64,000 nt of DNA from Carallia brachiata. Its lineage: Eukaryota > Streptophyta > Magnoliopsida > Malpighiales > Rhizophoraceae. The position numbers and the translations under genes were made by a program. This document shows, piece after piece, positions 9,793-50,147 of this stretch. The stretch lies in the NCBI GenBank assembly GCA_021464245.1, contig JADCRB010000057.1, forward strand, positions 1,799,859 through 1,863,858, in the 5' to 3' direction. Each line of letters opens with the position of its first letter. Position 1 is the stretch's first letter. The notes under the pieces were generated by a model. It did no database searches and was not told where the DNA came from. It worked only from the letters and a program-made list of their open reading frames with translations.

Positions 9793-12679
9793 TTAGACAG
9801 CAAAAGGGTTGAAGTAAACTATCGGAAGACACTGAAGTGCAGGAGAAAAGTTCATGAAAAATTCTGAAGGAGCCTTAATATTCTTGGCTTTATCCTGATC
9901 ACTTCCTTCAAGCTTCCAGTCAAAGCATTGAACCAGGGCTTCTACAACAGTACTGATCGTGCCAAATGCCAGGGTTTTTCCAGGACAAACTCTCCTTCCA
10001 CCACCAAATGGAAGAAAACTACTGTTCATCAGGTCCATGTTAGCTTCAATTTCCTGAGCTTTATTGTTATTATTATTAGAAACCAAGAACCTCTCGGGGC
10101 AAAACTTGTCAGGATTTTCCCACACCTCTGGATCTCTCATGATAGTGTGAAAGTTGATTAGCACGCTGGTGTTCTTTGGCACGTCGAAGCCTCCAAGTCT
10201 GCAGTTTTCTCTACAGAGTCTTGGGATTATTGAAGCTGGTGGATGCAATCTTAGTGTTTCCTTGACAACTGCATGCAAGTAGGGGATTTTCGGAATGTCA
10301 GATTCTTCAATGATTTGGCCCTTCCCCACGACTGATTCTATCTCCTCTCTCAGCTTTTTTGAATATAGCAGGATGGTCTATAAGCTGTTAGGAAATATAA
10401 GTAAAATCAACAGAAAATGGATGCAAATAATATTCAAATAAAGGATATGAACAGTGTCTGAGGCGTGCGAGGCACTGTCCTTAAGGATAGTTTCCGCCCC
10501 CGTTCTCAAGCTGAGACAGTGCACCAGGTCGCAGCGGCTACCCTCCCAGGATACAACAGACCTTCCCACTAATGTGCACTTCAAATAGTGAGGTAACAGA
10601 AACAACTCTAATCTTGATTAACCCAGCAAAAATGTAGCAAAAAGAATGTGCAGGAAGAAGAGTATCTGTAGAAAGTAGTCTTTCTGGAGAAGGATGAGTT
10701 GCTCATATACTGGTTCATCCTTTGAGGTTCATAAAAGTGAATAATGGCCATAAAGGTGAATAATGGACAGAATAATGGTGGTTAAATGGCTGTAACTGCT
10801 GCAACGACTAGTTTTCCAACAGTCAAAAACAGCTAGTTTGACCGAAGAGTCTGAATAGTCTCAAAAATATTGGGTTCAGGGGTGGACCGGCCCGAGACTG
10901 GGTTGCGCAAGACCTCTTATGAGTCTTTTGTTTTGTGAAAGTGTAAGATACATATTAGTTTATAAACAAGTGGTATATAACCTTTCTTTTCCATGTGGAA
11001 TCCAAGTCTCCTTACATACTCTTTTATTAAGTACTACTTGGCTTCTCTTTCCAATATGGGATTCAAGTCTTTTAAAATACCCTTTATTCTTCCAACATAA
11101 GCTCGGCCATTGCGCATATTATAGCGTCTGATGTAGTACCTGTGCCCCCAATGAAGAGGTCCTGCCACAAAGATCGATGATAATTAAAAAGAGTAATAAT
11201 GCTAATTAATATATGAAAAAATCTACATATATTATTAAATTGCATTCTTTGATATGATATTAGTACAGAACATCGCCGATGAGTTAACAATAAACATTTG
11301 ATGACTTCAATCTTAGAAATGTTTTCCCTGCAGCAAATGGGTTCGGTTACAGTTTGACAAGTGACTCCAATTTGCAAATTGCCTACCAAATCTGCCGTTC
11401 AGGATGGAGTCCGGGTACGGATCCCGATTTTCAATTGTCCAAAATTCTGTCCCATTGAAATAAGAATGAGATTTTTTGAAATTATAGTTAAATTTTTTGT
11501 AATAAAAAAAAATGAGATGTATTTTTTGTATTTTTATTGTAAAAAATGTCGCAGTTATTTTAAAAAATTATATTTTCGTTTCATTCAGACAAACGTTCAG
11601 ATAAAACAAAATCGAGATATATATATATATATATATATTGCTTTGGGAGATATGCATGAATTTTTTTTTTTTTTTTTTTTGGATATGCATGGAATTGAAA
11701 GCAAGAGGAGATGGGAAAAATATACCGCAATGGCACCCTCTATGTCTTTCCTCGTAATCTTAAATTCTGAACTATCATCATCTCTGTAAACTTTCAACTG
11801 AATATCCATCAAATCATTCTGATCTCCTGTTTGGCTTTCTTCATTGCCTCTGCTTTTCTTCTCGTGCTCCTCCAAGATCTTCTCCAGCAACTCGTCAAAC
11901 TTTCTATTCAGATCCCTCAGCCGTTTCGCATACAACCAAGAACCCAGTATTTTCAAACGACCATCAAAAGCTTTAGCAATCAACAGCGTTGGAGCAAGTT
12001 TAAGTGACCCATCTGCTAGCTCTCTACACTTCTCTGCCTCATTATCTTCCCCGGAGCACCTTGTGCTCATCACCGCCCTACATATACCGTTGTTGATTGC
12101 CCTCTTTATCTCACTAGATAGATCTATAATCTCACTTTGACAAGCTTTGTCTATTATTCTATGCAATAATTGTGCGAGTTCATCGCGTCGGACGTTGCAA
12201 GATCTCGATATCTGTTTCGCGGAAAGCAATTCTGTCACGCAAAGCTTTCTTGCAAATCTCCAAAAATCTCCGTATGGGGCACCTGCTATCCCTGACTTCC
12301 CAAATACAATGCCATCATCCCCACCGTTTTTTGGCCTGTCACAGAAAATAAGGTCCTGCATTCTGTATATCTCGGTGGCGAGTGCCGTGGATGAGACTAG
12401 GAAGCACTCTAAATTGCCAAAGCGGAGGCGGATGAGAGGGCCGTGCTTGGAAACGAGGTTTTGCAAGCTCTTGTGTAATTCTAAGCTTATGTGGTGAATA
12501 TGACCGACGAATGGAATCGCCGGTGGGCTTGGAGGGAGACGGAGTTGCGTGGTTGGATTTGTGGACTTCTTGGGGAGTGAGTAGTAGAGAATAATGATGG
12601 AGACAAGCCATAGGACGAGGAGGATCGCCAAGTTGCCTTGCAAGGTATCAATAAGGAAGGTGGCGGCCATGGTTAGCAT
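9793..12679 (-). pseudogene. Cytochrome P450 copy 1 (CYP71 clan, CYP93/CYP705/CYP712-like), disrupted
   Basis: Two exons on the minus strand. Exon 1 is 12679-11726 (318 codons): hydrophobic ER anchor (about residues 5-32), the LPPSPPAIPFVGHIH proline hinge and the APYGDFWRFARKLCV C-helix region. The donor is GCG|GTATAT and the acceptor GCAG|GACCTC, a phase-0 intron of 564 bp. Exon 2 starts at 11161 with the I-helix (FIGGTGTTSDAI) and is cut after 11103 by a solo LTR. Coding resumes at 10380 with an extra base near 10354 that shifts the frame. From 10329 the frame carries KETLRL (ExxR), FCPERF and the haem loop FGGGRRVCPG, with a stop at 9793-9795. An intact family member would be a membrane-bound haem monooxygenase. 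The substrate cannot be told from sequence. The insertion plus frameshift make this a pseudogene. Confidence 0.9.
10386..11097 (-). mobile_element. Solo Copia-type LTR inserted in P450 exon 2
   Basis: 712 bp bounded by inverted TGTT...AACA termini: on the plus strand it begins TGTTAGGAAATATAAG and ends TTCTTCCAACA. The perfect 5-bp duplication TAAGC lies at 10381-10385 and 11098-11102. The uninterrupted sequence in P450 copy 2 (33660-33668) is the empty site. Read on the minus strand it starts TGTTGGAAGAATAAAGGG and contains TTGAATCCCATATTGGAAAG, a style typical of plant Copia LTRs. No internal retrotransposon sequence remains, so it is a solo LTR left by LTR-LTR recombination. It interrupts the I-helix exon. 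Confidence 0.93.
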
Positions 12680-12779
12680 GCGGTTTCATGCAAGTACGCA
12701 AAGTGCTAAAAAAAACTTCGTTTATGGATCTAAAAAAGTTGATAATCAACCTCTGGGTTTAGTTCCATAAATTGAGAAG

Positions 12780-12787
12780 TATATATA
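12780..12787 (-). promoter_or_regulatory. TATA box of P450 copy 1
   Basis: TATATATA lies about 100 bp upstream of the ATG at 12679, read on the minus strand. The same motif is at the same distance in copy 2 (35333-35340), so it has been kept through the duplication. Confidence 0.55.
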
Positions 12788-13166
12788 GATCAGTGATGTC
12801 GATAAATTCAATCAAAGTTAACAAATTTCTCGTCGGTATCATTTAATTTTGCCTTGTAATTAAATATGGGTAGATGTTTCACCTATCTATCACTATCCTA
12901 TAGAATTAAAAAATTAGAAAATAGAAGGTTGGTATACTTAAATTGTCTCGCATTAATAAGATTGAGATTAGTGTTTGGGGTTTAGGTTTTTAGAGTTTAA
13001 AGTTTAGGATTTAGAGCTAAGAAAAGTATAATTTATTCTTAATTTGTTTATAATTTTCCGACAATAATGTCATATTCTTGCTAAAAAAAATGTCATCTTG
13101 CTTTTGCCTTCTCTTAATTTGTCTCGATTATGATGTTTCTTCTTGTATCTCTCTTACAAGTTCATA

Positions 13167-18271: not shown

Positions 18272-18917
18272 TGTAAACTAATAATTTAAAAAAAAAAAAA
18301 ATCTTGGTTGGCAGCCGCCAACCTTGAAGTCAAGGTTGGCAGCTGCCAACCTTTAATGCCAACCAATTGGTTGGTGGCAGGCAGGTGGGGAGGCCTATAA
18401 ATGGCCTCCCCAATTGAAGCAAATGGCAGCAGAAGAAAAAGAAGAAAAAAAGAGAAGCCAGCAGCGAAGCGCGCAAGGAAAAAAAAAAAAGAGAAAAGAA
18501 AAAAAAAAAAAAAGAGAGAGATAGTAAAAAAAAAAAAATCGAAATATTACAAATCCGGCTGGGATTAAGTCTCATACGGCCCTCAGCAAAATCCAGGCAA
18601 CTCATCCGAGAACAAGTCCATTCGACCCTCGGTGAAATTAAGTCAGATCAGCTCAGATCGAGTCTCTACGGTTCCTAAACGTAGTCAAAACATCCAAATC
18701 AGACAGTTTCAGTCTATCCAGTTCAAGAAAAAGCGGTGGAAATTATTTCTGTCAGATCAAGCTCGTGCAGCCCTTGACGGAGTAAAAAAAGGAACACTAA
18801 TCGGAGGATCTACGGAGATCGACCCCACGTAAATTTTCTTTTCTTTACAATTTTTATTTGTAATTTATTTTTGTATTTTCGAGTTTAATTGTTTTAGCTC
18901 GAAATTTACGCTTTACA
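18272..18917 (+). repeat. Element A 5' LTR
   Basis: 646 bp, TG...CA. U3 contains two near-palindromes in tandem (GGTTGGCAGCCGCCAACC and GGTTGGCAGCTGCCAACC, 18305-18352), then an AATTGG box and the TATA box. U5 (from about 18541, ATTACAAATCCGGCTGGGAT) is shared with elements B and C, while the U3 is not. Confidence 0.93.
18396..18402 (+). promoter_or_regulatory. TATA box of element A 5' LTR
   Basis: TATAAAT inside a small palindrome, AGGCCTATAAATGGCCT. It is repeated in the 3' LTR at 27724-27730. Elements B and C have TATAAATA at the matching place despite unrelated U3 sequence around it. Confidence 0.65.
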
Positions 18918-18923
18918 AATTTT

Positions 18924-18941
18924 TGGCACGCTCGGTGGGAC
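18924..18941 (+). other. Primer-binding site of element A
   Basis: TGGCACGCTCGGTGGGAC lies six bases after the LTR end, in the usual position for tRNA priming of minus-strand DNA. Element B has a one-base variant (50124-50141, minus strand), and element C has lost one base here (53258-53274). I cannot assign the tRNA with certainty. An A-rich leader with AAAAAGT repeats follows (18968-19108). Confidence 0.7.
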
Positions 18942-19128
18942 AACTTCACCTCCCATCTCTTGTTCCTAAAAAAAAAAAAAGAGGTAAAAGGGGAGCCGAG
19001 AGAAAAAAAAAAAGTAAAAAAAAAAGTAAAAAAAGTAAAAAGTAAAAAAAAAAGTAAAAGTAAAAAGTAAAAAAAAAAAGTAAAAAAAAAAGTAAAAAAA
19101 AAATTTTACAGGTGTTCAGCACATCAAA

Positions 19129-20690
19129 ATGGCACCGAAAGGAGTACAACTGCTGCCACAAAAAAGAAGGCAACGGCTCCATTGCCTGCATCAACTACCC
19201 TACCTGGGTACGCAGGTCCAGAAACCCGGGGACGGACACAATTTCTTGCCGTCCAAACCCGACAAAATGTCGAAATGGAGAGTCCACAGCTGCACAACAG
19301 GATCTCTCCCCTGACTCTCTTGCCGCATGGAGGAGTCGATCACCCACCCCGATCGAAGTCGGGGGCAACACGACGAAGCCTGCTCAACAATCCAATCATT
19401 CAGATCACACAGAAGAATCAGAAGAGTTTTCTCCCCCAGTCTTTCCCGGAGCCTCATCTGTTGCCGTCATGATGACCAACACAACCAGCACAGAGGAAAG
19501 ATTTCAGAATTGGAGAACAAAATTTTGCAGCTGATCAGAGTCGTGGAGGAAAAAGATCAACAGATCGCGCTCTCAAAGGAAAAGCCCCGATCCAAGTTGA
19601 TCCCGAAATCCGCGAGGAGCAACCATATCCACCCGGTTTCACTCCAGAAGCCACACCAGCCGACGTCTTCCTGCAGAAAAGCGACCAGGTAGTTCTACAC
19701 AGCTGCCACCCTCAAATTCTGTAGCTTCGCTATCTGTTCAACAATTGCAGGAAATGATAGCCAATACGATCCGACTGCAACAAGCTACATCCTTCCAAGG
19801 ATCACAGATGTACGTCAAACCGTACACCAGACGGATCGAAAGTCTCAACATGCCCTTGGGCTACCAGCCGCCCAAATTTCAACAATTCGACGGACGAGGC
19901 GATCCCAAACAGCACATCGCCCACTTCGTTGAAACCTGCAACAACGCAGGGACTTATGGAGATCTCTTGGTGAAGCAGTTTGTTCGTTCACTCAGGGAGA
20001 CCGCTTTCACCTGGTTCATAAATCTTGAACCAGAATCGATCGACAGTTGGGAACAGCTACAACGAGAGTTCCTCAACAGATTTTTCAGCACTCGAAGGAC
20101 GGTAAGTATGATGGAGCTTACCAGCACCAAACAAAGAAAGGAGAGCCCGTTGTCGAATACATCAACAGATGGCGTGCCCTCAGCTTGGACTGCAAAGATC
20201 GCCTGACGGAGACTTCTGCCGTGAGATGTGCATCCAGGGAATGCATTGGGAGCTGTTATACATCCTGCAGGGTGTCAAACCCCGAACTTTCGAAGAACTG
20301 GCGACCCGCGCACATGATATGGAGATAAGCATCCAGACTTCCGGAGGCACGGTTCCCATCCAGTTGGACCAGCAAGGGGGCAGAAGGGAGATTAAGAAAC
20401 CCAACAGCTCCGGAAAAGGAAAGAAGTGATGACTGTTGAAGCCGCACCAGTAAAAGTGGGAGCCAAAGCTAAGGTAAATCCTCCGACCCAAATAACTCAG
20501 CCAAAACAACAAAAGGCGGAAGGTGACATTGCGAGAGTGGAGCAGAAGCAGTATCCATTCCCCGACTCAGACGTCCCCGACATTCTTGAACAACTCTTGG
20601 AGGCGAAGCTGATCGAACTCCCAGAGTGCAAGCGGCCGAATGAAAAGGATCGAGTCAGCGATCCAGATTCTGCAAATATCACCGGATAGT
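19129..20690 (+). pseudogene. Element A gag, frameshifted
   Basis: Gag coats the retrotransposon RNA in virus-like particles. ATG at 19129 opens a frame that breaks soon after, and the homologous sequence continues in other frames. The N-terminal proline/serine-rich part lies at 19182-19500. The conserved capsid-like core is open at 19745-20206 (PPKFQQFDGRGDPKQHI then TAFTWFINLEPESI and FLNRFFSTRRTV). It continues at 20169-20429 (TFEELATRAHDMEI). The C-terminal LPECKRPNEKDRVSDP stretch leads into the remains of a C-x2-H...H...C zinc-knuckle-like motif that is clearer in the element B copy at 48277-48501. At least four frame changes separate these pieces. Confidence 0.88.
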
Positions 20691-20941
20691 AAGTCATCCA
20701 ACCGAGAAGTGTTTCGTCCTGAAGGAGCTAATCATGAAGCTCAAAAGCCAGAATAAAATCATTCTGGACCAGGAAGGCATAACTCTGCAAACCAGACCAC
20801 CATCACTTCAAAACCATCAGAAGAGGTGACACACCGTAAGGAGGAGCCGCTCGACAACAAAAAGTCGACAACGGAGAAGGTATATGAAGCTCTCCAAACC
20901 CTTCTCGCTAACCCTCAGCTGTTTAGCTTTGCAAACAAGAA

Positions 20942-21640
20942 GTGTGGCAAAATCAAGTCGCAATACTCTCCAGACCTCAGCTGAACCTCTGCCATCAAGA
21001 TTCCAACTCGCGGAGCAACAGGCGGACCAAAATCACGTCGGATGTTACTCTGCTATCTCATTTTCAGATGAGGATCTCCTGCTGGGGTCCAAACCCCACA
21101 ATCGGCCGCTTATGTATCAGGCTATGTGAAAGAACAGAAGGTCGACGTATTCTGATCGACGATGGCTCAGCAGTCAATATTATCCCAAAATCCACCATAA
21201 AGGAGCTCGGCATCGGCATTGATGAATTATCAGACAGCCGCTTGATGATTCATGGCTTTAATCAAGGAGGACAGAAAGCAATTGGGATGATTCGCTTGGA
21301 GCTAACTATCGGTAATCTCACTTCTAGCACTCTATTTCACGTGATTGATGCACGTACCACATATAAGATGTTGCTAGGACGACCGTGGATTCATGGAAAT
21401 GGAGTTGTGCTCTCAAGCCTGCATCAGTGCTTCAAGTACTACAATGGTGGCGTTCAAAAGGTCAATGCTGACTTAAAGCCGTTCGATGATGCTGAATCAC
21501 ATTTGGCGGATGCAGTCTTCTACACTGACACAGACAATCCGGAGATCATTCCGTCAAAAGCTACTTGGACTGGGGGCATCCACAAAAAGGGAAAAGCTGT
21601 CGAAGAACCTGCCAATGCCAACCCAGGCTCCAACAAATGA
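20942..21640 (+). CDS. Element A aspartic protease region of pol
   Basis: An open frame holding the retropepsin-like protease that would cut Gag-Pol. The active-site motif is ILIDDGSAVNIIP (D-[DST]-G type), followed by the flap region MIHGFNQGGQKAIG and the C-terminal LLGRPWIHG motif. It is part of a polyprotein rather than a stand-alone gene, so the first codon listed is only the edge of the open frame. Upstream (20690-20940) is the linker from gag in other frames. Downstream (21640-22470) is a poorly conserved spacer with further frame changes. Confidence 0.85.
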   Translation: MWQNQVAILSRPQLNLCHQDSNSRSNRRTKITSDVTLLSHFQMRISCWGPNPTIGRLCIRLCERTEGRRILIDDGSAVNIIPKSTIKELGIGIDELSDSRLMIHGFNQGGQKAIGMIRLELTIGNLTSSTLFHVIDARTTYKMLLGRPWIHGNGVVLSSLHQCFKYYNGGVQKVNADLKPFDDAESHLADAVFYTDTDNPEIIPSKATWTGGIHKKGKAVEEPANANPGSNK

Positions 21641-22469
21641 AAAGCTGCCACAGCCTGCTGAACTCCGTCCGAAGGATGTTGCATCTTCAAGCTCCACTCC
21701 AGTCCTACGCTATGTGCCGAAGTCACGACGCTCAGAAGGTCAACCCCCTTTCTCTTATTGTATTGATCTTAAACAGGAGCAAGGTCATAGCCAACCCAAA
21801 ACAAAGGAGCTGCACAACCTGAAGGAGACTTACACTCTGCCGATACCAAAGATTGAGCCGGTTTTGTCTTCAAAACCATTAAAAGGCTTCGTCAAACCAC
21901 ACACGGGGGCAGTCGAAGGCGGCTCACTTCCAGAAAGAAGAACACATGAAGGATTTGATCCTAATGCATACAAGCTTTTGGCAAAGGCGGGCTATGACTT
22001 TCAAACCCGAGCACAATGGGTACGCTGCCGTCCACACATGGCGCCGCTTCTCAAACATCACAGTCCCGACCTGGCTTAGGCTATCAGGAGAAGTCACCTG
22101 TGCGGATCACGCTAAAGAGCCGAAGCCGAGCAGCTGATGCACGTGCCATCACCACCACCACCAAACAAGACAGGCTTATCCAGTCAAACAAAGAAGGTGA
22201 AGTCAGAGGTTCTGCATTTCATGTCACAATTAGCGAGGAGGCTGATTCCGACTCATCAGATGGTGAAGTGAAGGAGGCTCCCCCGGAACTTGAAGATGGT
22301 GGCCAAGCAACTGTTGATGAACTCAAGGAGGTCAATCTTGGCTCTCCGGAAGATCCTCGACCTACATTTGTAAGTGCTTTACTTACTGCAGAAGAAGAGC
22401 AAGAATATGTTCAGGTATTAAGTCAATACAGGGACGTGTTCGCATGGAGTTACAAAGAAATGCCTGGAC

Positions 22470-24410
22470 TTGACCCAAAATTGCGGTGCATCGTCTAGCA
22501 GTAAAGAAGGGTGTCCGTTCTGTCAAGCAGCCACAACGACGGTTCCGCCCGGAACTCATTCCACAAATCGAGGAGGAGGTGAACAAGCTGATCAATGCCG
22601 GCTTCATCCGAGAGGTCACCTACCCAACGTGGATTGCCAACATTGTCCCGTAAGAAAGAAGAATGGACAGTTGAGGGTATGTGTTGATTTTCGAGATCTT
22701 AACAAGGCCTGCCCGAAAGATGACTTTCCTGTGCCCATAACGGAGATCACAGTCGATGCAACAACGGGTCACGAAGCATTGTCCTTCATGGATGGTTCTT
22801 CAGGCTATAACCAAATCAGAATGGCACCAGAAGACGAGGAGTTGACAGCATTCCGCACCCCAAAAGGTATATACTGCTACAAAGTTATGCCGTTTGGATT
22901 GAAAAATGCTGGCGCCACTTATCAACGTGCTATGCAAAAAATTTTTGATGACATGCTGCACAAGATTGTAGAATGTTATGTTGATGACTTAGTTGTAAAG
23001 ACTAAGAAGCGCAAAGACCACCTCGAGGATCTCAAGACAGTGTTCGAAAGACTTCGGAGGCATCAGCTCAAAATGAACCCTCTCAAGTGCGCATTCGGTG
23101 TCACATCAGGAAAGTTTCTTGGGTTCGTGGTGCGCCATCGTGGAATCGAAGTTGATCAGTCAAAGGTTGAGGCAATTCAAAAGATGCCTGAACCTAAAAA
23201 CCTGCACGAGCTGCGAAGTCTACAAGGAAAGCTGGCCTACATTCGCCGTTTCATCTCCAATTTAGCTGGGAGATGTCAACCTTTCCATCGGTTGATGAAG
23301 AAGGATGTCAACTTCGAGTGGGACGAAGCTTGCAGCAAAGCCTTTGAGAGCATAAAGAAGTACCTTTCCAATCCACCGTCCTGGGCTCCAATTCAAGGAA
23401 AGTCGTTGATTCTCTACATTGCAGCGCAGGAAAGATCTTTGGGAGCCTTGCTTGCACAGGAAAACGAGCAGGGAAAGGAAGTTGCCCTGTACTACTTGAG
23501 CAGAACACTAAACGGTCCGGAGCTGAGTTATTCGCCCATTGAAAAGACATGTCTAGCACTGTTCTTTGCCATTGACAAGCTGAGGCACTACATGCAAGCT
23601 CACACGGTACGTCTCATTGCCAGAGCTGATCCTGTCAAATATATCTTATCCAGACCAATCTTGTCAGGACGACTTGCCAAGTGGGCAGTAATCCTACAAA
23701 GCTACGACATTGTCTACGTGCCTCAAAAAGCAGTCAAAGGACAAGCTCTAGCAGACTTCCTTGCAGATCACCCTGTTCCGTCAGATTGGGAGTTCACAGA
23801 TGATCTTCCAGATGAAGAGGTCTTTTACATTGAGACACTGCCACCATGGACGATGTTCTTTGATGGTGCAGCAAGGCGTGATGGTGCTGGTGCCGAGATA
23901 GTGTTTGTCACTCCTCAACGACAAATACTACCATATGCTATCATTCTCGGTGAGTTATGTTCAAATAATGTTGCTGAATACCAGGCTTTGATCATTGGTC
24001 TTCAAATGGCTGTCGATATGAAGATTCCAACTATAGAAGTCCATGGAGATTCCCAGCTCGTCATCAACCAACTTACAGGATTGTATGACGTGAAGAAAGA
24101 GGACCTTGCGCCTTACCATCAACGTGCTCGACAGCTAATGGATGAATTTGAAAGCATCACCTTGGAGCATGTGCCTCGACGAGAAAACACTCAGGCAGAC
24201 GCGTTGGCTAACCTGGCCACTTCTCTTGCAAAGTCAGAAATCCAGGCTACAGTTGTTGCCGTATGCCAGAAATGGATAGTGCCACAAAGGATGATGAAGA
24301 AACTACAGCAGCCAACGCTGTATCTGTACGTCTCGCGGAGGACGAGGATTGGCGCCAACCAATCATTGACTACTACAGCACGGGAAGCTGCCCGAAGATC
24401 GTCGTCATAA
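22470..24410 (+). CDS. Element A reverse transcriptase plus two RNase H domains
   Basis: A 646-codon open frame. The first 60 or so codons are out of the native frame, with homology joining at KKNGQLRVCVDFRDLNKACP (about 22655). RT motifs follow: MDGSSGYNQI, the MPFGLKNAGATYQR motif and the catalytic YVDDLVV (about 22978). The Ty3-type RNase H runs about 23390-23790 (YIAAQERSLGALLAQ, YSPIEKTCLALFFAI). A second, plant-type RNase H follows at about 23840-24240 (MFFDGAARRDGAGAEIVF, NNVAEYQALIIGL, GDSQLVINQL and ADALANLA). Two RNase H domains in this order are characteristic of the Tat lineage. Element B lacks a small in-frame deletion that A has near 23382 (residues around NPPSWAP). Confidence 0.93.
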   Translation: MTQNCGASSSSKEGCPFCQAATTTVPPGTHSTNRGGGEQADQCRLHPRGHLPNVDCQHCPVRKKNGQLRVCVDFRDLNKACPKDDFPVPITEITVDATTGHEALSFMDGSSGYNQIRMAPEDEELTAFRTPKGIYCYKVMPFGLKNAGATYQRAMQKIFDDMLHKIVECYVDDLVVKTKKRKDHLEDLKTVFERLRRHQLKMNPLKCAFGVTSGKFLGFVVRHRGIEVDQSKVEAIQKMPEPKNLHELRSLQGKLAYIRRFISNLAGRCQPFHRLMKKDVNFEWDEACSKAFESIKKYLSNPPSWAPIQGKSLILYIAAQERSLGALLAQENEQGKEVALYYLSRTLNGPELSYSPIEKTCLALFFAIDKLRHYMQAHTVRLIARADPVKYILSRPILSGRLAKWAVILQSYDIVYVPQKAVKGQALADFLADHPVPSDWEFTDDLPDEEVFYIETLPPWTMFFDGAARRDGAGAEIVFVTPQRQILPYAIILGELCSNNVAEYQALIIGLQMAVDMKIPTIEVHGDSQLVINQLTGLYDVKKEDLAPYHQRARQLMDEFESITLEHVPRRENTQADALANLATSLAKSEIQATVVAVCQKWIVPQRMMKKLQQPTLYLYVSRRTRIGANQSLTTTAREAARRSSS

Positions 24411-24509
24411 GACAGAAATTCAACGACGAGCTCCCCGCTTCATATATCTCAAGGATGCTCTGTATCGAAGGTCTTTTGATGGAGTTTTACTTCGCTGCCT
24501 AGCAATGAA

Positions 24510-25588
24510 GAGGCAAAACAACTCTCACTGAAGCACATTCTGGTGTTTGTGGCGGACATCAATCGGGCCTAAGTTGCACTTCCAACTCAGAAGGATGGGA
24601 TACTACTGGCCAACCATGGTACGTGATTCAATTGAGTTTGCTAAAACTGTCAAGCTTGTCAATTTCATGCGAATTACATACATCAACCACCGGAGCCACT
24701 GCATCCAACTGTCTCATCCTGGCCCTTTGAAGCTTGGGGTCTCGACTTAGTGGGGCCCTTGCCAAAGTCATCCCTGGGTCACCTGTACATCCTCGCAGCA
24801 ACCGACTACTTCTCAAAATGGGCTGAAGCCATTCCACTTAGAGAGGTAAAGAAGGAGCATGTTGCCAATTTCATCCGGACTCAGCTGATCTATCGCTATG
24901 GAGTCCCTCGATTCATCATCACTGATAATGGTAAGCAGTTCTACAACAGCTTATCGACAAGCTCTGCGAGAAGTTCAAGTTCAAGCAGTACAAGTCATCC
25001 ATGTACAATGCCCCAGCAAATGGCTTGGCCGAAGCATTCAACAAGACCTTATGCAACCTGTTGCGGAAGGTAGTCTCTAAATCCAAAAGAGATTGGCATG
25101 ACAGAATTCCGGAGGCATTATGGGCGTATCGTACAACTTACCGGACTCCAACACAGGCGACGCCATACTCACTTGTCTACGGTGTCGAAGCAATACTGCC
25201 GTTGGAAACACAGATTCCATCTCTGCGCATGGCTGTTCTGGAAGGACTCACACAGGAGGAGAATGCTCGCCTACGTCTAGATGAGTTAGAAGCCTCGATG
25301 AAAGGAGGCTCGAAGCACAACAGCAACTTGAGTGCTACCAAGCCCGGCTCACCAACACGTTCAACCGCAGGGTCCGCCCTCGATCTTTTCAAGTTGGAGA
25401 CCTTGTTCTTGCAGTGCGACGGCCCATCAACATGAAGCATCGGCCTGGTGACAAGCTTACTTCCAAATGGGACGGGCCATACTTAGTGCAGGAGGCCTAC
25501 ACTCACAACGCTTACATGCTGTCAGACCAAGAAGGCGTCCGAATCGGCCCAATCAATGGTAAATTTCTGAAACAGTATTATGTGTAAA
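24510..25588 (+). pseudogene. Element A integrase, frameshifted
   Basis: Integrase inserts the retrotransposon cDNA and makes the 5-bp target duplications. Pieces in order: H-H-C-C zinc-binding region (about 24535-24720, including LHFQLRRMGYYWPTMVRD); catalytic core with first Asp in ILAATDYFSKWAEAIP, second in RFIITDNGKQF and the Glu in NGLAEAFNKTL; then AYRTTYRTPTQATPYSLVYG and a C-terminal domain ending VRIGPINGKFLKQYYV with TAA at 25586-25588. A two-base deletion near 24951, relative to element B, splits the core between the second Asp and the Glu. At least one other frame change precedes the core. Confidence 0.88.
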
Positions 25589-25950
25589 TATGTTTAAAAA
25601 AAAAATCAAAAAAAGAAAAAAAAAAAAAAAAATACAAAAAAAAAATCAAAAAAAAAAATCAAAAAAATCAAAAAAAAATCAAAAAAAAAAAATTGGAAGT
25701 CCCGATCTGAAATCAAGCGAAAACCCAAACCGAAAATCCAACCCAAACACTTGAGCCCAATTCAAGTCCAACTCAAAAGCCTGAAAACCAAATCCAAAAA
25801 TCCAAGTCTAGAAGCCCAAACACTCGACCCAAATCCAATCCAAAACCTAAAACCCAAAAATTCCAAGTCCCAAACACAGTCCAGAACCCAAGTTCAAAAT
25901 CCAATCCAACTCCTGGCCCGCATGAGTATAAACTGTGAACGGCCCAAAAA
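25589..25950 (+). other. Element A spacer between integrase and homeobox frame
   Basis: A poly-A/AAATC-rich stretch (25596-25695), then low-complexity CCAAA/CCAAATCC-type repeats to about 25910, then GCATGAGTATAAACTGTGAA, a single relative of the unit that is amplified to 17 copies in element C. No coding frame is conserved between the three elements here. Confidence 0.7.
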
Positions 25951-25958
25951 TATAAAAG
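25951..25958 (+). promoter_or_regulatory. Candidate internal TATA box for the homeobox frame (element A)
   Basis: TATAAAAG lies 95 bp upstream of the ATG at 26046. It is present identically in element B (40377-40384, minus strand). In element C it has changed to AAATAAAAG. The spacing is that of a plant core promoter with a short 5' leader, which suggests the captured gene came with its own promoter. Confidence 0.5.
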
Positions 25959-26045
25959 CAACGGAGGGTTTGAGTCTGAAACTCAGCATCAGTCTCAACC
26001 GATCTTCACCACATACCAAGACCTTGCCCCTCTGCCACAAGAAAG

Positions 26046-26657
26046 ATGGAACCAGTTGCAGAACCTCAAGACAAGGGAGAAGAAAGATCACCCCGCACAA
26101 GGTGGCAACCGACCATGGCACAACTAGAAATTTTGGAGGAAGTCTTCCACAACAATGGAGGTATTATTCCTAGTGCATCTCAAATTTACCAACTTGTTTC
26201 ACGATTGCGCCCGCTCGGGGCAATTGAAGGAAAAAATGTGTTTTATTGGTTCCAGAATCGGAGAAGCAGGAAGAAACCAGCACTGAGAACTGCTTCTTCC
26301 AAAGAACAGTCTGTCGTTCCAGTAGTAAATCCCACTGGTACAGCTTCGCCCACAAATGAAGCAGGTCCAAGTTCTTCCACTGCAATGGTCTCTCCACGGT
26401 ATGTTCATCAAAGTCGTAGCCCATGGGAGAATGCATACTGGTCCTGGTGGTCTTACGGAGTCAGCCGAGGGTTCATCCCTCCTAGATACTTAAGTCTAGG
26501 AGGAATTTTTCTAGCAGAAATAAGTCATTCCGGCGAAATTTTGCCTCTCTTTCAAGAATATTCCGGCAGCATCAACCAGCCGGAAAGCGACGTCAACATC
26601 ATCGGCCCACCAGACGAGGTCGAGCTTGACTTGGAGCTGCGCCTTGGGCCCCGCTAG
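26046..26657 (+). CDS. WUSCHEL/WOX-type homeodomain protein carried by retrotransposon A
   Basis: 203 codons, uninterrupted and intronless. The homeodomain is about residues 17-78: RTRWQPTMAQLEILEEVF (helix 1), SASQIYQLVSRL (helix 2), then the WUS-clade signature IEGKNVFYWFQNRRSRKK (helix 3). The extra residues between helices 1 and 2 are typical of WOX proteins. A WUS-box-like ILPLFQ lies at residues 165-170 (canonical form TL-x-LFP), and an EAR-like repression motif LDLELRL at residues 194-200. WUS/WOX proteins are nuclear transcription factors that maintain plant stem cells. Here the frame lies in sense orientation between integrase and the 3' LTR, with a TATA box 95 bp upstream. Sister copies in B and C are broken. 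The domain call rests on sequence; activity of this copy is unknown. Confidence 0.9.
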   Translation: MEPVAEPQDKGEERSPRTRWQPTMAQLEILEEVFHNNGGIIPSASQIYQLVSRLRPLGAIEGKNVFYWFQNRRSRKKPALRTASSKEQSVVPVVNPTGTASPTNEAGPSSSTAMVSPRYVHQSRSPWENAYWSWWSYGVSRGFIPPRYLSLGGIFLAEISHSGEILPLFQEYSGSINQPESDVNIIGPPDEVELDLELRLGPR

Positions 26658-26678
26658 GACGGCCGACAAGATAAGGTG

Positions 26679-26757
26679 CAACGACTTTGGCAGCACACGG
26701 TAACGACTTCTGCAGCACACGCTAACGACTTCTGCAGCACACGGCAACGACTTTCGT
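26679..26757 (+). repeat. About 22-bp tandem repeat after the homeobox frame
   Basis: AACGACTTCTGCAGCACACG-type units repeat three to four times, starting 22 bp after the homeobox stop codon. The same array is in element B (about 39598-39660) and C (about 57622-57686) with different unit numbers. It may be a 3' regulatory or structural element; the function is unknown. Confidence 0.75.
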
Positions 26758-26952
26758 GACACGCGTCAGCCGCTGTCTCTTTTGTCTCTTATACAGGAAA
26801 GGGACGTGGATGACCCTGCTCGATTCTGCGTACCTTCTTTTTGACTTTTTTTTTTCAAAAAAAAAAAAAAAACCCTTTATCGCATGTATATATATATCTT
26901 GCATTCCCGAGTTATAATACTCACCCCCTCAGCTCTTCTTTCTCAAAAGAAA

Positions 26953-27201
26953 ATGGCTAGTCTCTGCACTTGTCCTAAGAAGTTCTTTGATAAAGAAGTT
27001 GGAGGAGTACGAGCTAAGAAAAGAAGGAGTAGTCTTCCTCGAGGGATCCCTAACGCCATCGGTGTCATGGAGTTCCAACTACTCTCCTTAGTTCACATCT
27101 ACTACAGAGGGATGAGACGCTGCAATTATCCTAATCTTCCTTTGGATGCGGCGATGTACGGGGAAGTTCCAACTACTCTCCTTACGTCGAAGCAGACTTA
27201 G
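26953..27201 (+). CDS. Short conserved frame of unknown function in element A 3' region
   Basis: 82 codons, basic near the N-terminus (CTCPKKFFDKEVGG, AKKRRSSLPRG), then EFQLLSLVHIYYRGMRR and NLPLDAA. I do not recognise a domain. Homologous frames occur at the same place in element B (39129-39431, start codon changed to ATA) and element C (57689 onward, frameshifted). Many differences between copies are conservative at the protein level (K/R, Y/H). In A a TATATATATA run at 26886 lies about 65 bp upstream, so this may be a second captured transcription unit. It could also be a chance frame in a conserved 3' region. Confidence 0.35.
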   Translation: MASLCTCPKKFFDKEVGGVRAKKRRSSLPRGIPNAIGVMEFQLLSLVHIYYRGMRRCNYPNLPLDAAMYGEVPTTLLTSKQT

Positions 27202-27578
27202 GAATCATCACTACAGTCAGTCTCTCTGTGCGCAGGTCTTAAAGTTCCAAAGTGCTGGGCCTTCCTCTTGGGGAGGTTCAAGTTCTTTGCCTACCGGATC
27301 ATCCTCACCAGAGCTCTGGAACTTTAAGAGATATAAAAAATCCTTTGCGGGCTATGGAAGCTCGAATGCACCTGGAGTCAAGGATTCAATTTCTATATTG
27401 GCTGGGCTGCTAACTTCTTCAAGATCATATCGGTTTCCTATTGCGATCCAACAACAGCGGACATGGTCAAAGATAGAAGACTCCAAGATTCAATGTTCAT
27501 CAGGACTTTCCAAATTTCAAACTGGACTTCAAGATTCGGTTCGAATTATCTCTGTAAAAATCTTTCTTACCGACCCTT

Positions 27579-27588
27579 GAAGTGGGGG
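27579..27588 (+). other. Polypurine tract of element A
   Basis: GAAGTGGGGG followed by CATT directly before the 3' LTR. The same motif precedes the 3' LTR in B (38756-38766, minus strand) and C (58337-58346). It primes plus-strand DNA synthesis. Confidence 0.75.
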
Positions 27589-27592
27589 CATT

Positions 27593-28268
27593 TGTAAACT
27601 AATAATTTAAAAAAAAAAAAAAAAATTCTTGGTTGGCAGCCGCCAACCTTGAAGTCAAGGTTGGCAGCTGCCAACCTTTAATGCCACCAACCAATTGGTT
27701 GGTGGCAGCAGGTGGGGGAGGCCTATAAATGGCCTCCCCAAATTGAAGCAAATGGCAGCAGAAGAAAAAGAAGAAAAAAAGAGAAGCCAGCAGCGAAGCG
27801 CGCAAGGAAAAAAAAAGAAAAGAAAAAAGAAAAGAAAAAAAGAAAAAAAAGAGAGAGATAGTAAAAAAAAAAAAAATCGAAATATTACAAATCCGGCTGG
27901 GATTAAGTCTCATACGGCCCTCAGCAAAATCCAGGCAACTCATCCGAGAACAAGTCCATTCGACCCTCGGTGAAATTAAGTCAGATCAATTCAGATCGAG
28001 TCTCTACGGTTCCTAAACGTAGTCAAAACATCCAAATCAGACACAGTTTCAGTCTATCCAGTTCAAGAAAAAGCGGTAGAAATTATTTCTGTCCAGATCA
28101 AGCTCGTGCAGCCCTTGACGGAGTCAAAAAAAAAAAAGGAACACTAATCGGAGGATCTACGGAGATCGACCCCACGTAAATTTTCTTTTCTTTTACAATT
28201 TTTTTATTTGTAATTTATTTTTGTATTTTCGAATTTAATTGTTTTAGACTCGAAATTTACGCTTTACA
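27593..28268 (+). repeat. Element A 3' LTR
   Basis: 676 bp, TGTAAACTAA...GCTTTACA. Nearly identical to the 5' LTR apart from homopolymer-length changes and a few substitutions (for example TCAATTCAG against TCAGCTCAG). It is followed by the TTGAC duplication. Confidence 0.93.
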
Positions 28269-32334: not shown

Positions 32335-33071
32335 AGAATTCGACTTCGCCTGTGGTGAGTCGGGCGTGTCTCTCTTTATTTTAGTTCTTGTTCGATTGTT
32401 CGGAGTGTCGCTTTTTTCTACATAAATGGAATCTATAGGTATGCATGTTAGCAAGTTTCAAATTCGATACGTTTTAAATGGATGCAGGAGGCCCGCTCAG
32501 CCCATCATTATGAGTATGGTGATGCTCTTTACAAGAAATCTTAAGACCAAAATTTATGAGTGCGAATAAACTTAAGCCTCTGTGAACGTGAGTTATAGTA
32601 TAATCATTTGAATCATTTGTATGGTTCAAAGGCTTTCTATCCCATTTTTGTTGTAGTGAACGGTACTATTCCTTTAAAATCTTTTCCATTAAAATCTTTT
32701 CCAAACCTTTTATTTTTGGACGGAAAGCGGTCAAACTGTTGGAAATTCAATTTATGTCTTATAATGGTTTGTTTGTTTTCCATTAAAAGAACAAATGGAA
32801 AAAGTTAGCAGTCAAACAATGGAACCAAATAAGAGCCATATTGCATTAGCCAAAAAAAAAAAAAAAAGAAAGAAAAATTTTCTTTTAAATTATTATTTAA
32901 GATAATATTAAGTATATTTAAGATAACACACCAAGTACATTCAGTATTTAATTTTTGATAATAAAAAAAAAAAGATAGAGTATTACCACTATGTGGCCAA
33001 ACAAATTTGGCCATGTAGTGGAGCCCTAAGGAAAAGAAAAAAAAAAAAAACTCGAGCGTTTAACTACGCTT

Positions 33072-35233
33072 TTAGACAGCTAAAGGGTTGAAGTAAACTA
33101 TAGGAAGACACTGAAGTGCAGGAGAAAAGTTCACGAAAAATTCTGAAGGAGCCTTAATATTGATGGCTTTATCCTGATCACTTCCTTCAAGCTTCCAGTC
33201 AAAGCATTGAACCATGGCTCCTACAACAGTACTAATCGTGCCAAATGCCAGGGTTTTTCCAGGACAAACTCTCCTTCCACCACCAAATGGAAGAAAGCTG
33301 CTGTTCATCAAGTCCATGTTAGCTTCAATTTCCTGAGCTTTATTATTATTATTATTATTGGAAAGCAAGAACCTCTCGGGGCAAAACTCGTCAGGATTTT
33401 CCCACACCTTTGGATCTCTCATGATTGTGTGAATGTTGATTAGCACGTTGGTGTCCTTTGGCACGTCGAAGCCTCCAAGTTTGCAGTTTTCGCTACAGAG
33501 TCTTGGGATTATTGAAGCTGGTGGATGCAATCTTAGTGTTTCCTTGACAACTGCATGCAAGTAGGGGATTTTGGAATGTCTGATTCTTCAATGATTTGGC
33601 CCTTTCCCACGACTGATTCTATCTCCTCTCTTAGTTTTTTTAATATAGCAAGATGGTCTATAAGCTCGGCCATTGCGCATATTATAGCGTCTGATGTAGT
33701 ACCTGTGCCCGCAATGAAGAGGTCCTGCCACAAAGATCGATGATAATTAAAAAGAGTAATAATGCTAATTAATATATGAAAAAATCTATATATATTATTA
33801 AACTGCATTCTTTGATATGATAATAGTACAGAATATCGCCATGAGTTAGCAATAAATATTTCATGACTTCAATTTTAGAAATATTTTCCCTGCGGAAACG
33901 GGTTCGGTTACAATTTGACAAATGACTCCAATTTGCAAATTGCCTAGCAAATTTGCCACTCAGGATGGAGTCGGGTACGGATCCTGATTTTTGATAGTCT
34001 AAAATTCTGTTTGATTGAAATGAGAATGAGATTTTTTAAAATTACAGTAAAATTTCTTCCAACAACAAAAAAATACTGAATATACTTTTTGTATTCTCCT
34101 TATAAAAAGTATTGCAGTTTTTTTTAAAATATCACACTCTTGTTCATTCAGGCAAATATTCCGACAAAACAAAATTGAGATTTATATTTTTTTTTTGCTT
34201 CGGGAGATATGCATGGAATTTTTTTTTTTTTGGATATGCATGGAATTGAAAGCAAGAGGAGATGGGAAGAATATACCGCAATGACACCCTTAATGTCTTT
34301 CCTCGTAATCTTAAATTCTGAACTATTACTATCATCTCTGTAAACTTTCAACAGAATATCCATCAAATCATTCTGATCTCCTGTTTGGCTTTCTTCATTG
34401 CCTCTGCTTTTCTTCTCGTGCTCCTCCAAGATCTTCTCCAGCAACTCGTCAAACTTTCTATTCAGATCCCTCAGCCGTCTCGCATACAACCAAGAGCCCA
34501 GTATTTTCAAAGGACCATCAAAAGCTTTAGCAATCAACAGCGTTGGAGCAACTTTAAGTGACCCATCTACCAGCTCTCTACACTTCTCTGCCTCGTTATC
34601 TTCCCCAGAGCACCTTGTGCTCATCACCATCCTACATATGCCGTTGTTAATTGCCCTCTTTATCTCACTAGATAGATCTATAATCTCACTTTTACAAGCT
34701 TTGTCAATTATTTTATGCAACAATTGCGCTAGTTCATCGCGTCGAACGTTGAAAGATCTCGATATCTGTTTCGCGGAAAGCAATTCTGTCACGCAGAGCT
34801 TTCTTGCAAATCTCCAGAAATCTCCATATGGGGCACCTGTTATCGCTGACTTCCCAAATAAAATGCCATCCTCCCCACCGTTTTTTGTCCTGTCGCTGAA
34901 AATAAGGTCCTGCGTTCTGTATATCTCGGTGGCGAGTGCCGTGGATGAGACTAGGAGGCACTCTAAATTGCCAAAGCGGAGGCGGATGAGGGGGCCGTGC
35001 TTGGAAACGAGGTTCTGGAAGCTCTTGTGGAATTCTAAGCTTAAGAGGTGAATATGACCGACGAATGGAATCGAGGGTGGGCTTGGAGGGAGACGGAGTT
35101 GCGTGGTTGGATTTGTGGACTTCTTGGAGAGTGAGTAGTAGAGAAGAATGATGGAGACAAGCCATAGGACGAGGAGGATCGCCAAGTTGCCTTGCAAGGT
35201 ATCAATAAGGAAGGTGGTGGCCATGGTTAGCAT
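33072..35233 (-). pseudogene. Cytochrome P450 copy 2 (CYP71 clan, CYP93/CYP705/CYP712-like), one frameshift
   Basis: Exon 1 is 35233-34277 (319 codons): ER anchor, LPPSPPSIPFVGHIH hinge, APYGDFWRFARKLCV, and SSEIKRAINNGICRMVMSTR, which resembles the CYP93/CYP712 region. Donor GCG|GTATAT, acceptor GCAG|GACCTC, phase-0 intron of 552 bp. Exon 2 is 33724-33072: I-helix FIAGTGTTSDAI (the usual AGTDTT Asp is Gly), KETLRL, FCPERF, haem loop FGGGRRVCPG and a final FNPLAV. Relative to copy 1 one base is missing near 33572, in the DIPK segment before KETLRL, so the frame shifts. The product would otherwise be about 536 residues, near family length. It is either a recent pseudogene or a sequence error in a working oxygenase. 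The substrate is unknown. Confidence 0.88.
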
Positions 35234-35332
35234 GCGGTTTCATGCAAGTCCGCAAAATGCTAAAAAAACTTCGTTTATGGATCCAAAAAAGTTGATAATC
35301 AACCTCTGGGTTTAGTTACATAAATTGAGTAG

Positions 35333-35340
35333 TATATATA
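35333..35340 (-). promoter_or_regulatory. TATA box of P450 copy 2
   Basis: TATATATA about 100 bp upstream of the ATG at 35233, in the same position as in copy 1. Confidence 0.55.
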
Positions 35341-35809
35341 GATCAGTGATGTCGATAATAGTGATGTCGATAAATTCAATCAAAGTTGACAAATTTCTCG
35401 TCGGTATCTTTTAATTTTGCCTTGTAAATGTGGATAAATATTTCACGGTACTTGCTAATTTTATTCTTTATTTTTTTATGAGTAAAATTAACTCATAATT
35501 TAATATTATTTAAATATTATTTTTAATTTTTTTTATTCTAGTAAATTTCACTTATTATCTAATATAAGATTATGAATAAATTACATTCACTTAAAAATAA
35601 AAAGTTAAAATAGAAATCCTCATATTTCACCTATGTATTACTACCGTATAAAATTAAAAAATTAGAAAATAGAAGGTTGATATAATTAAATTGTCTCACA
35701 AGAGAAAAATTGAGATTAGAGTTTAGGGTTTAGGATTTTAGAGTTTAAAGTTTAAGATTTAGAGTTAAGAAAAGTATAATTTATTCTTAAAAAAAGTTTA
35801 AGACATGTA

Positions 35810-37863: not shown

Positions 37864-38751
37864 TGTAAAAGGTAAATTTCGAGTTTAAAACAAATAAATT
37901 CGAAAATATAAAAAATAAATTACAAATAAAAATATAAAATAAAAGGAAATTTACGTGGGGTCGATTTCCGTAGATCCTCCAATTAGTGTTCCTTTTTTTT
38001 TTAACTCCGTCAAGGGCTGCACGAACTTGATCTTGACAGAAATAAATTTTACAGCTTTCTCTTGAACTGGGTAGACTGAAACTGGATCTGATTTGACCGT
38101 TTAGGCTACGGTTAAGAACCGTAGAGACCTGATCTGAGCCGATCTGACTTAATTTCACCGAGAGTCGAAGGGATTTGTTTTCGGATGAGCTGCCTGAATT
38201 TTGCTGAGGGCCGTATGAGACTTGATCCCAGCCAGATTTGTAATATTTTGATATTTTCATATCTATATTCTCAAAAATTCAGATCTAGAGCGATCAGAGA
38301 ATATAAACCCAAAAATAACTTTAGAAATGGAAACAACAAATTTTTTGGGGTTTACCCCTGAAATATCTCTCGAAAAGAAGTTAGGAGAGTATACTGCAGA
38401 GTAAAAACACGTAGAAAAAGGAGAAATTTTCTTGAGAGATTTTCAAAATTTTCTTTTTCTCTCAAATTCTCTGAATTTTTCTATTTACAGATTTGCTGAA
38501 TGTGTTTTGAACTAGGGGGCAAGGGTCTATTTATAGGGTTTCCCCTCTCGTGTGAAAGCATGCGTGTGAAAAGAATAAGTCGATTTTTCTGTGTGAAAGG
38601 AATAAGTCGACTTTTCCGTATGAAAGGAATAAGTCGACTTTTCCGTGTGAAAGCACACGTGCGAAAGGAATAAGTCGACTTTTCCGTGTGAAAGCACACA
38701 TGCGAAAGGAATAAGTGGACTATTAACTCTTTTTTTTTCTTTATGTTTACA
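37864..38751 (-). repeat. Element B 3' LTR
   Basis: 888 bp. On the plus strand it begins TGTAAAAGGTAAATTTCGAG and ends TATGTTTACA. U3 (38555-38720) holds five to six copies of a roughly 30-bp unit with AATAAGTCGACTTTTCC, some separated by GTGTGAAAGCACAC hairpins. The TATA box (TATAAATA, minus strand) is at 38528-38535. U5 is shared with A and C. Confidence 0.92.
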
Positions 38752-39128
38752 AATGCCCCCCACTTCAAGGGTCGGTAAGGAAGAACTTTGCAGACGTAAT
38801 CCGCACCGAGTCTTGAAGTCCAGTTTGAAACTTGAGATGTCCTGATAAACATTGAATGTTAAAGTCTTCTAACTTTGACTATACATGCTGTTGTTGGATC
38901 GCAATAGGAATCCGATACGATCTTGAGAAAGTTAGCACCCCAGCCAATATAAAAATTGACATTCTGGCTCTAGGTGCGATTGAGCTTCCATAGCTCGCAA
39001 AGGCTAGTAAAGGTTCTTTGAAGTTCCAAAACTCTGGTAATGATGATCCGGTAGGCAAAAAACTTAAACCTCCCCAAGTGGAAGGCCCAACACCTCAAAA
39101 CTTCAAGACCGGCACACAGAGAGACTGA

Positions 39129-39431
39129 CTATAGTGATGATTCCCGAGTCTGCTCCAACGTAAGGAGAGTAGTTGGAACTTCCCTATACGTCGCCGCATC
39201 CAAAGGAAGATTAGGATGATTGCAGCTTCTCATCCCTCTGTGGTAGATGTGAACTAAGGAGAGTAGTTGGAACTCCATGACACCGATGGTGTTGGAGATT
39301 GAGTTTCGAGGGCTTTTAGAGATCCCTCGAGGAGGACTACCTCTTCTTTTCTTAACTCGTGCGCCTCCAACCTCTTGATCAAAGAACTTTCTGAGATAAG
39401 TGCAGAGACTAGTTATTTTCTTTTTGAGGAA
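39129..39431 (-). pseudogene. Short conserved frame in element B 3' region, start codon lost
   Basis: Matches the element A frame at 26953-27201 (KFFDQEVGGARVKKRRG, EFQLLSLVHIYHRGMRS and NLPLDAATYREVPTTLLT). The codon at the place of the A start is ATA. An insertion relative to A (SKSPRNSISN) is shared with element C, so it is probably ancestral. The function is unknown. Confidence 0.35.
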
Positions 39432-39668
39432 AAGAAGAGATAAGGGGTGAGTACTACAACTCGGACATGCAGCATCTATATACAAATAATAAAGAGTTCT
39501 TTTTTTGAAAATTCAAAAAGAAGGTACGCAGAATCGAGTAGGGTTATCCACGTCCCTTTCCCGCATAAGAGACAAAAGAGGCAGCGGCTGATGCGTGTCA
39601 CGAAAGTCGTTACCGTGTGTTGCAGAAGTCGTTGCCGTGTGCTGCAGAAGTCGTTGCACCTTATTTTG

Positions 39669-40289
39669 TCAGTCGTCTTGGCGGGGCCCAAGGCGCAGCT
39701 CCAAGTCAAGCTCGACCTCGTCTGGTGGGCCGATGATGTTGACGTCGCTTTCCGACTGGTTGATGCTGTCAGAATATTCTGGAAAGAGAGGCAAAATTTC
39801 GCCGGAATGACTCCTTTCTGCTAGAAAAATTCCTCCTAGACTTAAGTACCTAGGAGGGATGAACCCTTGGCTGACTCCATAAGACCACCAGGACCAGTAC
39901 GCATGCTTCCACAGGCTACGATTTTGATCGTTATAGCCTGAAGAGACCATTGCAGTGGTAGAACTCGGACCTGCTTCATTTGAGGGCGAAGTTGTACCGG
40001 TGGGATTTACTATCGGAACGGCAGACTGTTCTTTGGAAAAAGTAGCTCTCAGTGCTGGTTTCTTCTTGCTTCTCCAATTCTGGAACCAATAAAACACATT
40101 TTTTCCTTCGATTGCCCCGAGCGGGCGCAATCATGAGACAAGTTGGTAAATCTGAGATGCATTAGGAATAATAGCTCCATTGTTGTGGAAGACTTCTTCC
40201 AAAATTTGCAGTTGTGCCATGGTTGGTTGCCACCTTGTGCGGGGTGACCTTTCTTCTCCCTTGTCTTGAGGTTCTGCAACTAGTCCCAT
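39669..40289 (-). pseudogene. WUS/WOX-type homeobox frame of element B, with stop codon
   Basis: The ATG is at 40289-40287. The N-terminal half is frameshifted and a TGA replaces the Arg codon (CGA in element A) in helix 2 of the homeodomain, near 40131. Downstream the frame is open: IEGKNVFYWFQNWRSKKK, then the WUS-box-like ILPLFP and the EAR-like LDLELRL, ending GPRQDD. The CGA to TGA change is what deamination of a methylated CpG would give. The TATA box TATAAAAG is kept at 40377-40384. Confidence 0.88.
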
Positions 40290-42071: not shown

Positions 42072-42239
42072 CCTTCTGTGCCACTATCCATTTCTGGCAT
42101 ACAGCAACAACTGTAGCCTGGATTTCTGATTTTGTAAGAGAGGTGGCCAAGTTAGCCAACGCGTCTGCCTGAGTGTTTTCTCGTCGAGGCACATACTCCA
42201 AGGTGATGCTTTCAAATTCATCCATTAGCTGTCGAGCAT

Positions 42240-50141: not shown

Positions 50142-50147
50142 AAAATT

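Follow-up and report, generated by a model that had tools for sequence, protein, structure and literature searches.

Genes of the WUSCHEL (WUS) type, members of the WOX homeobox family, instruct plant cells to remain stem cells. In this study, an intronless WOX/WUS-like reading frame was analyzed which lies inside a long terminal repeat (LTR) retrotransposon, termed element A, within a 64,000-nucleotide stretch of the Carallia brachiata genome (contig JADCRB010000057.1, positions 1,799,859 to 1,863,858; in the following referred to as the window). The closest described system is outlined in a 2023 meeting report, according to which WOX genes are highly amplified in Vigna marina and V. riukiuensis, the latter having more than 1000 copies, and most of them lie between identical LTRs with target duplications (PMC10714607). 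It was the sole LTR-borne WOX case found in a literature search outside which subscription papers and some preprints lay, and it weakens the novelty of the observation, for which a first-pass annotation of the window knew of no described case. In both systems WOX genes have been multiplied inside LTRs. The Vigna report differs in being, in its available form, a talk summary without sequence, element lineage or selection data, and the host studied here is not legume-like (its P450 proteins best match Malpighiales, with 52% identity to Erythroxylum and 44% to soybean). Hence, this kind of element has already been reported in outline; its anatomy, family-wide presence, selection and block exchange were not found in print by the same search.

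Other plant LTR elements are known to carry additional frames. Orchid Ty3/Gypsy elements of 25 kb encode an N6-methyladenosine (m6A) RNA demethylase (PMC9289625). As far as the accessible text describes them, they resemble the elements studied here in that a plant Ty3/Gypsy family acquired a host-type domain as a fixed additional frame and retained it through diversification; however, the orchid product is an RNA-modifying enzyme, whereas a developmental transcription factor is encoded here. For other LTR elements, the accessible text of that study, a screen of 121 genomes, names B3 and YgdH (LONELY GUY) domains and not homeobox. Homeobox is likewise not named in the accessible parts of PMC7264820, PMC11963269 and the gene-capture review PMC13317346, the last giving 0 matches to the term. 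Retand elements possess antisense TRP28 frames of, as a rule, at least 600 nt (PMC11963269). According to the available text, they share with element A the non-chromovirus plant Gypsy affiliation and an additional protein, probably DNA-binding, that is encoded between pol and the 3′ LTR, and tandem repeats are present in about half of them. In contrast, their extra frame is antisense and the one described here is sense, and the same text reports no sense frame with a known domain. An antisense frame of the TRP28 kind between pol and the 3′ LTR was not found in element A, the element inspected for it, where the longest antisense open stretch, judged by length and without Pfam, comprises 96 amino acids.

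The homeobox frame and its retrotransposon

The frame occupies positions 26046-26657 on the plus strand and consists of 203 intact codons in sense orientation, with integrase upstream and the 3′ LTR downstream, which agrees with the place and strand given in the first-pass annotation. Its product contains a homeodomain (PF00046, E-value 2.3e-12, 47 bits versus a cut-off of 22.9) spanning residues 16-80 (26091-26285, plus strand), as delimited by PF00046, alignments to PDB entries and a structural model. Just two distinct sequences of solved structure matched the protein at E≤0.01, namely WUSCHEL (6ry3, 3.7e-18) and STENOFOLIA (6wig, 6.3e-16). These matches bear out the WOX homeodomain recognized in the first pass, which had named a search without homeodomain match as the outcome that would refute it. 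The predicted fold, computed from ten aligned sequences, shows the three homeodomain helices with predicted local distance difference test (pLDDT) values of at least 90 at 51 residues, the remainder being mostly below 60. The model had 11 Foldseek matches (E≤0.001), each a homeodomain chain of WUS or STENOFOLIA, and several of these chains are bound to TGAA, TAAT or G-box DNA.

Alignment to WUS proteins also revealed the two motifs that had been noticed from the letters, a WUS-box-like motif (26538-26555, plus strand) and the C-terminal EAR motif LDLELRL (26625-26645, plus strand). The order homeodomain, WUS-box and EAR equals that of the host WUS genes and of WUS proteins in general. Among 40 distinct intact copies of the frame (see below), the WUS-box consensus T-L-x-L-F-P is present as an exact TLPLFP in 24, and P or Q follows LPLF in 35; most intact copies contain homeodomain, WUS-box and EAR together. 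The frame resembles members of the WUS clade in homeodomain length, WUS-box, C-terminal EAR and motif order. It differs from them by a homeodomain with 46-51% identity to the nearest rows and another helix end, by its intronless state and by its location on a mobile element.

Element A extends from position 18272 to 28268 (plus strand) as determined by self-comparison. It features two LTRs (18272-18917 and 27593-28268) with TG..CA ends (TGTAAAC...TTTACA), a 5-bp target duplication (TTGAC) at both sides, a purine-rich tract AAGTGGGGGCATT just upstream of the 3′ LTR, gag and pol, i.e., the components of an LTR retrotransposon. All of its features are encoded on the plus strand. A gag part (19601-20203; PF03732, 1.1e-07) is followed by a probable aspartic protease region (20927-21637; PF13975, 18.8 bits, under its cut-off) and by one 646-aa frame (22470-24410) uniting reverse transcriptase (RT; PF00078), the Gypsy RNase H (PF17917/PF17919) and a second RNase H (PF13456, 83.5 bits), which we take to be of the archaeal type. 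The integrase (24645-25584; PF00665, 1.2e-08 in its first piece, otherwise located by frame positions) is interrupted by small indels. Directly 3′ of the homeobox frame, a repeat search detected 22-bp tandem repeats (26680-26753). A second RNase H is named as a feature of Tat elements (PMC5348765). Judged by its dual RNase H, the family is of the Tat type within Ty3/Gypsy, which supports the lineage assigned in the first pass.

The two LTRs diverge by 0.006, corresponding to four substitutions accompanied by 15 gap openings. Element A is young, namely 0.24-0.44 million years old at assumed substitution rates. Since 15 gap openings stand against only four mismatches, the assembly probably contains small indel (homopolymer) errors, and the broken integrase frame of element A has to be read with corresponding caution.

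Copy number, recent amplification and selection

Two further elements in the window carry the frame at the same place. Element B (37864-51055, minus strand) is bordered by a TCGTC target duplication at both sides and contains a homeobox frame with one in-frame TGA (39681-40289, minus strand; 92% DNA identity to A). Element C (52439-59144, plus strand), delimited by self-comparison and lacking pol, harbors a frame with frameshifts and a stop (56988-57602, plus strand; 89% DNA identity to A); an exact target duplication was not found for it. LTR divergence (K) amounts to 0.088 in element B and 0.076 in element C, marking both as old insertions. The first-pass statement on B and C thus holds for the position of their frames, both of which are broken.

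Genome searches covered the assembly of 337.5 Mb in 164 contigs. The genome-wide count suggested in the first pass amounts to hundreds of copies: a 30-nt homeobox-core pattern (≤3 mismatches) matched 832 times and an integrase-core pattern 667 times, the reversed-pattern control yielding 0 in each case. A protein search returned 2287 first-look candidates, and the 150 that were scored all matched at 85-100% identity. Out of 86 scored RT matches, 16 were checked, namely those on contigs C1-C43, for which all exact homeobox matches were listed; ten were examined by position and by eye and six by fetched sequence; all 16 elements carry the homeobox frame at the expected place, one of the fetched ones only partially. 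Moreover, in a sample drawn by the 3′ flank (the top 27 of 40 flank matches minus element A and six copies known from protein matches), the homeobox was present in all 20 copies fetched, with its first third missing from one of them. Capture before the spread of the family, as proposed in the first pass, is accordingly matched by carriage throughout the sampled family; the three-element picture behind it had to be corrected to hundreds of copies, with A young, B and C old and C devoid of pol.

A host WOX gene or retrocopy around which elements landed is refuted by these results and has a negligible probability. A and B are independent insertions in which LTRs and target duplications enclose the frame, copies of the frame number in the hundreds, and the host's own WOX genes occupy at least nine separate loci, two of which are WUS-like.

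Amplification continued until recently, as at least 20 copies contain identical intact 624-nt frames. These copies were chosen for equal score, which partly causes the identity of their frames; their flanks, free of that choice, are 96-100% identical in 200-column windows, except for an A-rich stretch (90-93%). Seven of ten fetched 5′ pieces allowed LTR comparison, giving K values of 0-0.015 (0-11 mismatches over 184-899 ungapped columns, several pairs being partial), and the other three gave no LTR match. Integrase frameshifts in element A and several young copies prompted the consideration of non-autonomous spread with a dead pol and a live homeobox. This scenario was set aside because the integrase motifs lie in one frame in two of five burst copies examined (L038 and L041), the breaks differ among the others, open RT frames reach 1064 aa among the copies, and the LTR differences of element A are dominated by gaps.

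Ratios of non-synonymous to synonymous substitution rates (dN/dS) for the homeodomain were 0.23 between A and B, 0.14 between A and C and 0.35 between B and C (Fisher p 0.017, 0.0012 and 0.12); for the whole frame, they were 0.48, 0.38 and 0.56 (p 0.018, 0.0006 and 0.13). For comparison, gag of these elements gave 0.16-0.29, RT 0.30 and protease 0.27, and the integrase pieces, with few changes, 0.32, 0 and 0.72. A set of 40 distinct intact copies, derived from 59 intact among 70 located copies and chosen by protein score, showed a ratio of non-synonymous to synonymous differences (pN/pS) of 0.184 (0.077-0.425) in the homeodomain and 0.77 in the linker. Since choice by protein score pushes such ratios down, the calculation was repeated for the 20 flank-sampled copies. 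Here, the homeodomain reached 0.365 (bootstrap 0.215-0.601), which is weaker than in the intact set and still low, and the linker was near neutral (0.79; 0.41-1.81). WUS-box and EAR residues are nearly all retained in the same 20 copies. Purifying selection is statistically supported in the homeodomain only and not in the WUS-box/EAR end.

Furthermore, a third type of copies, Z, comprising most of L105-L113, shares only 73-85% DNA identity with the other types in the homeodomain block, between flanks of 86-100% identity, so that the homeobox block was probably exchanged between lineages. Type Z was set against A, Y and L018 in four comparisons, with resulting dS values of 0.34-0.48 and dN/dS values of 0.27-0.36 (Fisher p 0.0004-0.015). 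According to these values, the constraint on the homeodomain is old (13-34 million years at assumed rates). A dN/dS near 1, which the first-pass annotation had regarded, if found across many copies together with a missing transcript, as the mark of a passenger fragment, does not apply to the homeodomain, either in the flank sample or in the type Z comparisons. Because the homeodomain looks kept by selection, the element probably uses the gene.

Origin of the frame and possible action of its product

The element homeodomain shows 46-51% identity to the best rows of the modern (WUS) clade and 39-42% to WOX11; for type Y, the single best row is WOX3 (51%), with WUS at 49%. It has the length of the WUS homeodomain, including an extra residue common to WUS and also to one WOX2 row, and shares the helix end NRRSR with WOX9/11. 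In a tree contrasting the modern clade with WOX9/11, it falls on the modern side with a support of 98/95 (98/97 in an earlier tree) and on a long branch. There, the element rows are placed next to the remaining 19 rows of the modern clade, which form a group of their own (87/84); a tree holding the element rows with WUS was not rejected by the approximately unbiased (AU) test (p-AU 0.199). The protein database yielded 18 PF00046 proteins with 39-51% identity to the element protein, either annotated as WUS/WOX or without a name, and a profile search was drawn towards WOX11 among the best 120 of 1063 matches. Relatives were not found in a viral contig collection. Few other WOX proteins are known to carry both WUS-box and EAR, and their joint presence favors WUS as the donor. 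Based on these comparisons, the donor was a modern-clade WOX gene, probably WUS-like. The host WUS gene L101 encodes its homeodomain in one exon and WUS-box and EAR in another, with intron sequence in between (exon ends determined by eye); the contiguous frame of the element, set against these split exons, fits an mRNA-mediated capture.

Regarding expression, the 150 nt ahead of the ATG (25896-26045, plus strand) form a conserved non-coding block, in which 30 other copies match A at 94-99% per base, compared to 39-89% further upstream. Of 50 copies, 42, among them the 20 identical burst copies, have the sequence TATAAAAG (25951-25958 in element A) 93-96 nt ahead of the ATG, and no ATG lies between it and the frame start in the two copies inspected. 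TATA-bearing units number 15 in one of 50 other copies and one in the remaining 49; element C has a related array. The conserved block is a candidate internal promoter.

It appears rather probable that a Tat-type Ty3/Gypsy element took up a WUS-clade WOX gene by way of its mRNA and keeps it, between pol and the 3′ LTR, as an accessory gene for a WUS-like DNA-binding repressor behind a candidate internal promoter. A separate mRNA would most likely arise from the TATA box in the conserved block directly ahead of the frame. The protein would then enter the nucleus, where its homeodomain would find target sites. WUS-box and EAR motifs serve in co-repressor recruitment, and those of the element protein would recruit co-repressors of the TOPLESS type. 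Acting in trans, the repressor may influence host genes or the element's own transcription and may thereby benefit the element.

A possible, on balance doubtful, form of this action is self-regulation, in which the protein would adjust transcription of the element by binding to its LTR or to the block ahead of the frame. The conserved block and the TATA-bearing repeats before the frame of element C are consistent with it, and antisense TRP28 proteins have been suggested to do likewise in Retand, as the available text indicates (PMC11963269). However, the canonical WUS sites TGAATGAA and TTAATGG were not found in the six LTRs of A, B and C or in the block, and self-binding via such sites in the LTRs was rejected; given the changed recognition helix, this search represents a weak test of self-binding. 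A G-box is present in each LTR of element B and TAAT cores occur in the LTRs, both counted without comparison to chance.

Rather unlikely is a manipulation of cell fate, in which WUS-like action in shoot or germline-lineage cells would keep these undifferentiated and thereby provide more cells whose new insertions are inherited. Homeodomain, WUS-box and EAR in most intact copies and the selected homeodomain would suit such a role, and Citrus LTR elements carry YgdH, the domain of LONELY GUY cytokinin proteins, according to the accessible text of PMC9289625. Against it stand the recognition helix, which is unlike that of WUS, and the hundreds of copies tolerated by the genome. That the retrotransposon encodes a working stem-cell regulator with which it holds host cells in the state of stem cells or of the germline lineage, or resets them to it, and replicates in that state, close to what the first pass had imagined, is judged unlikely from the sequences at hand.

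Several observations weigh against a captured and still used WUS-like repressor. The recognition helix ends in NRRSRKK in the element and in NHKARER in WUS. LPLF is absent from four of the 40 distinct intact copies, and element A itself reads ILPLFQ, one letter off the usual ending. Canonical WUS sites are missing from LTRs and block, as stated above. The conservation of the TATA box does not exceed that of other 8-mers upstream (49th percentile), and the box was rejected as a specially conserved motif. Whole-frame dN/dS ratios are moderate (0.38-0.56), with the comparison of B and C not being significant. In the intact set, the WUS-box block had a pN/pS of 1.88 (0.45-12.0) and the EAR block one of 0.40 (0.12-1.45); the C-terminal part of the flank-sampled copies gave 0.57 (0.17-2.15). 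Finally, just two of the 20 flank-sampled copies possess an undamaged frame, a share biased low by leaving out element A and six copies known from protein matches and by 1-nt indels of which some look like assembly errors.

The damaged majority of that sample and the WUS-box block without measured constraint would also be expected of a captured gene without function, carried as a passive passenger, and transduction of host genes by LTR elements is possible, as the accessible text of PMC7264820 states. However, purifying selection on the homeodomain next to a near-neutral linker, the intact frames of the youngest burst and the frame in all 16 checked RT-sampled elements argue against it, making a passive passenger unlikely, and indeed quite improbable, as far as the sequences can tell. 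Capture and continued use of a WUS-clade gene therefore remains the preferred reading.

Context of the window and significance for plant retrotransposons

Further features were observed in the window. The RT regions of A and B are about 98% identical (22680-24179 and 42170-43760), and their homeobox frames just 92% (26046-26654 and 39681-40289), which indicates a different history of the 3′ part, i.e., recombination. Element B also contains a 2.7-kb internal direct duplication (44475-49874; 93% identical) around its gag-protease region. Ahead of the homeobox frame of element C, repeat and pattern searches located a tandem array (55745-56521, plus strand) whose units contain GAGTATAAA, with 16 matches at ≤1 mismatch; the same array has 16 matches to SRCRYGAGTATAAA (≤1 mismatch), its units being core-promoter-like, and one such match each occurs in A and B. 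A CYP712/CYP705-like P450 gene is present twice on the minus strand (9313-12859 and 32568-35427; 90-91% identity), once on each side of element A. Tandem repeats of approximately 100 bp occupy positions 3271-5096, outside the elements.

Extra frames of plant LTR elements can rarely be named. Here, a recognizable developmental regulator with a selected DNA-binding domain is present in hundreds of copies and took part in a very recent burst. WOX gene counts in genome annotations may consequently be inflated by elements of this kind. Moreover, the family opens a direct test of whether influence on stem-cell or germline identity can be to the advantage of a plant retrotransposon.
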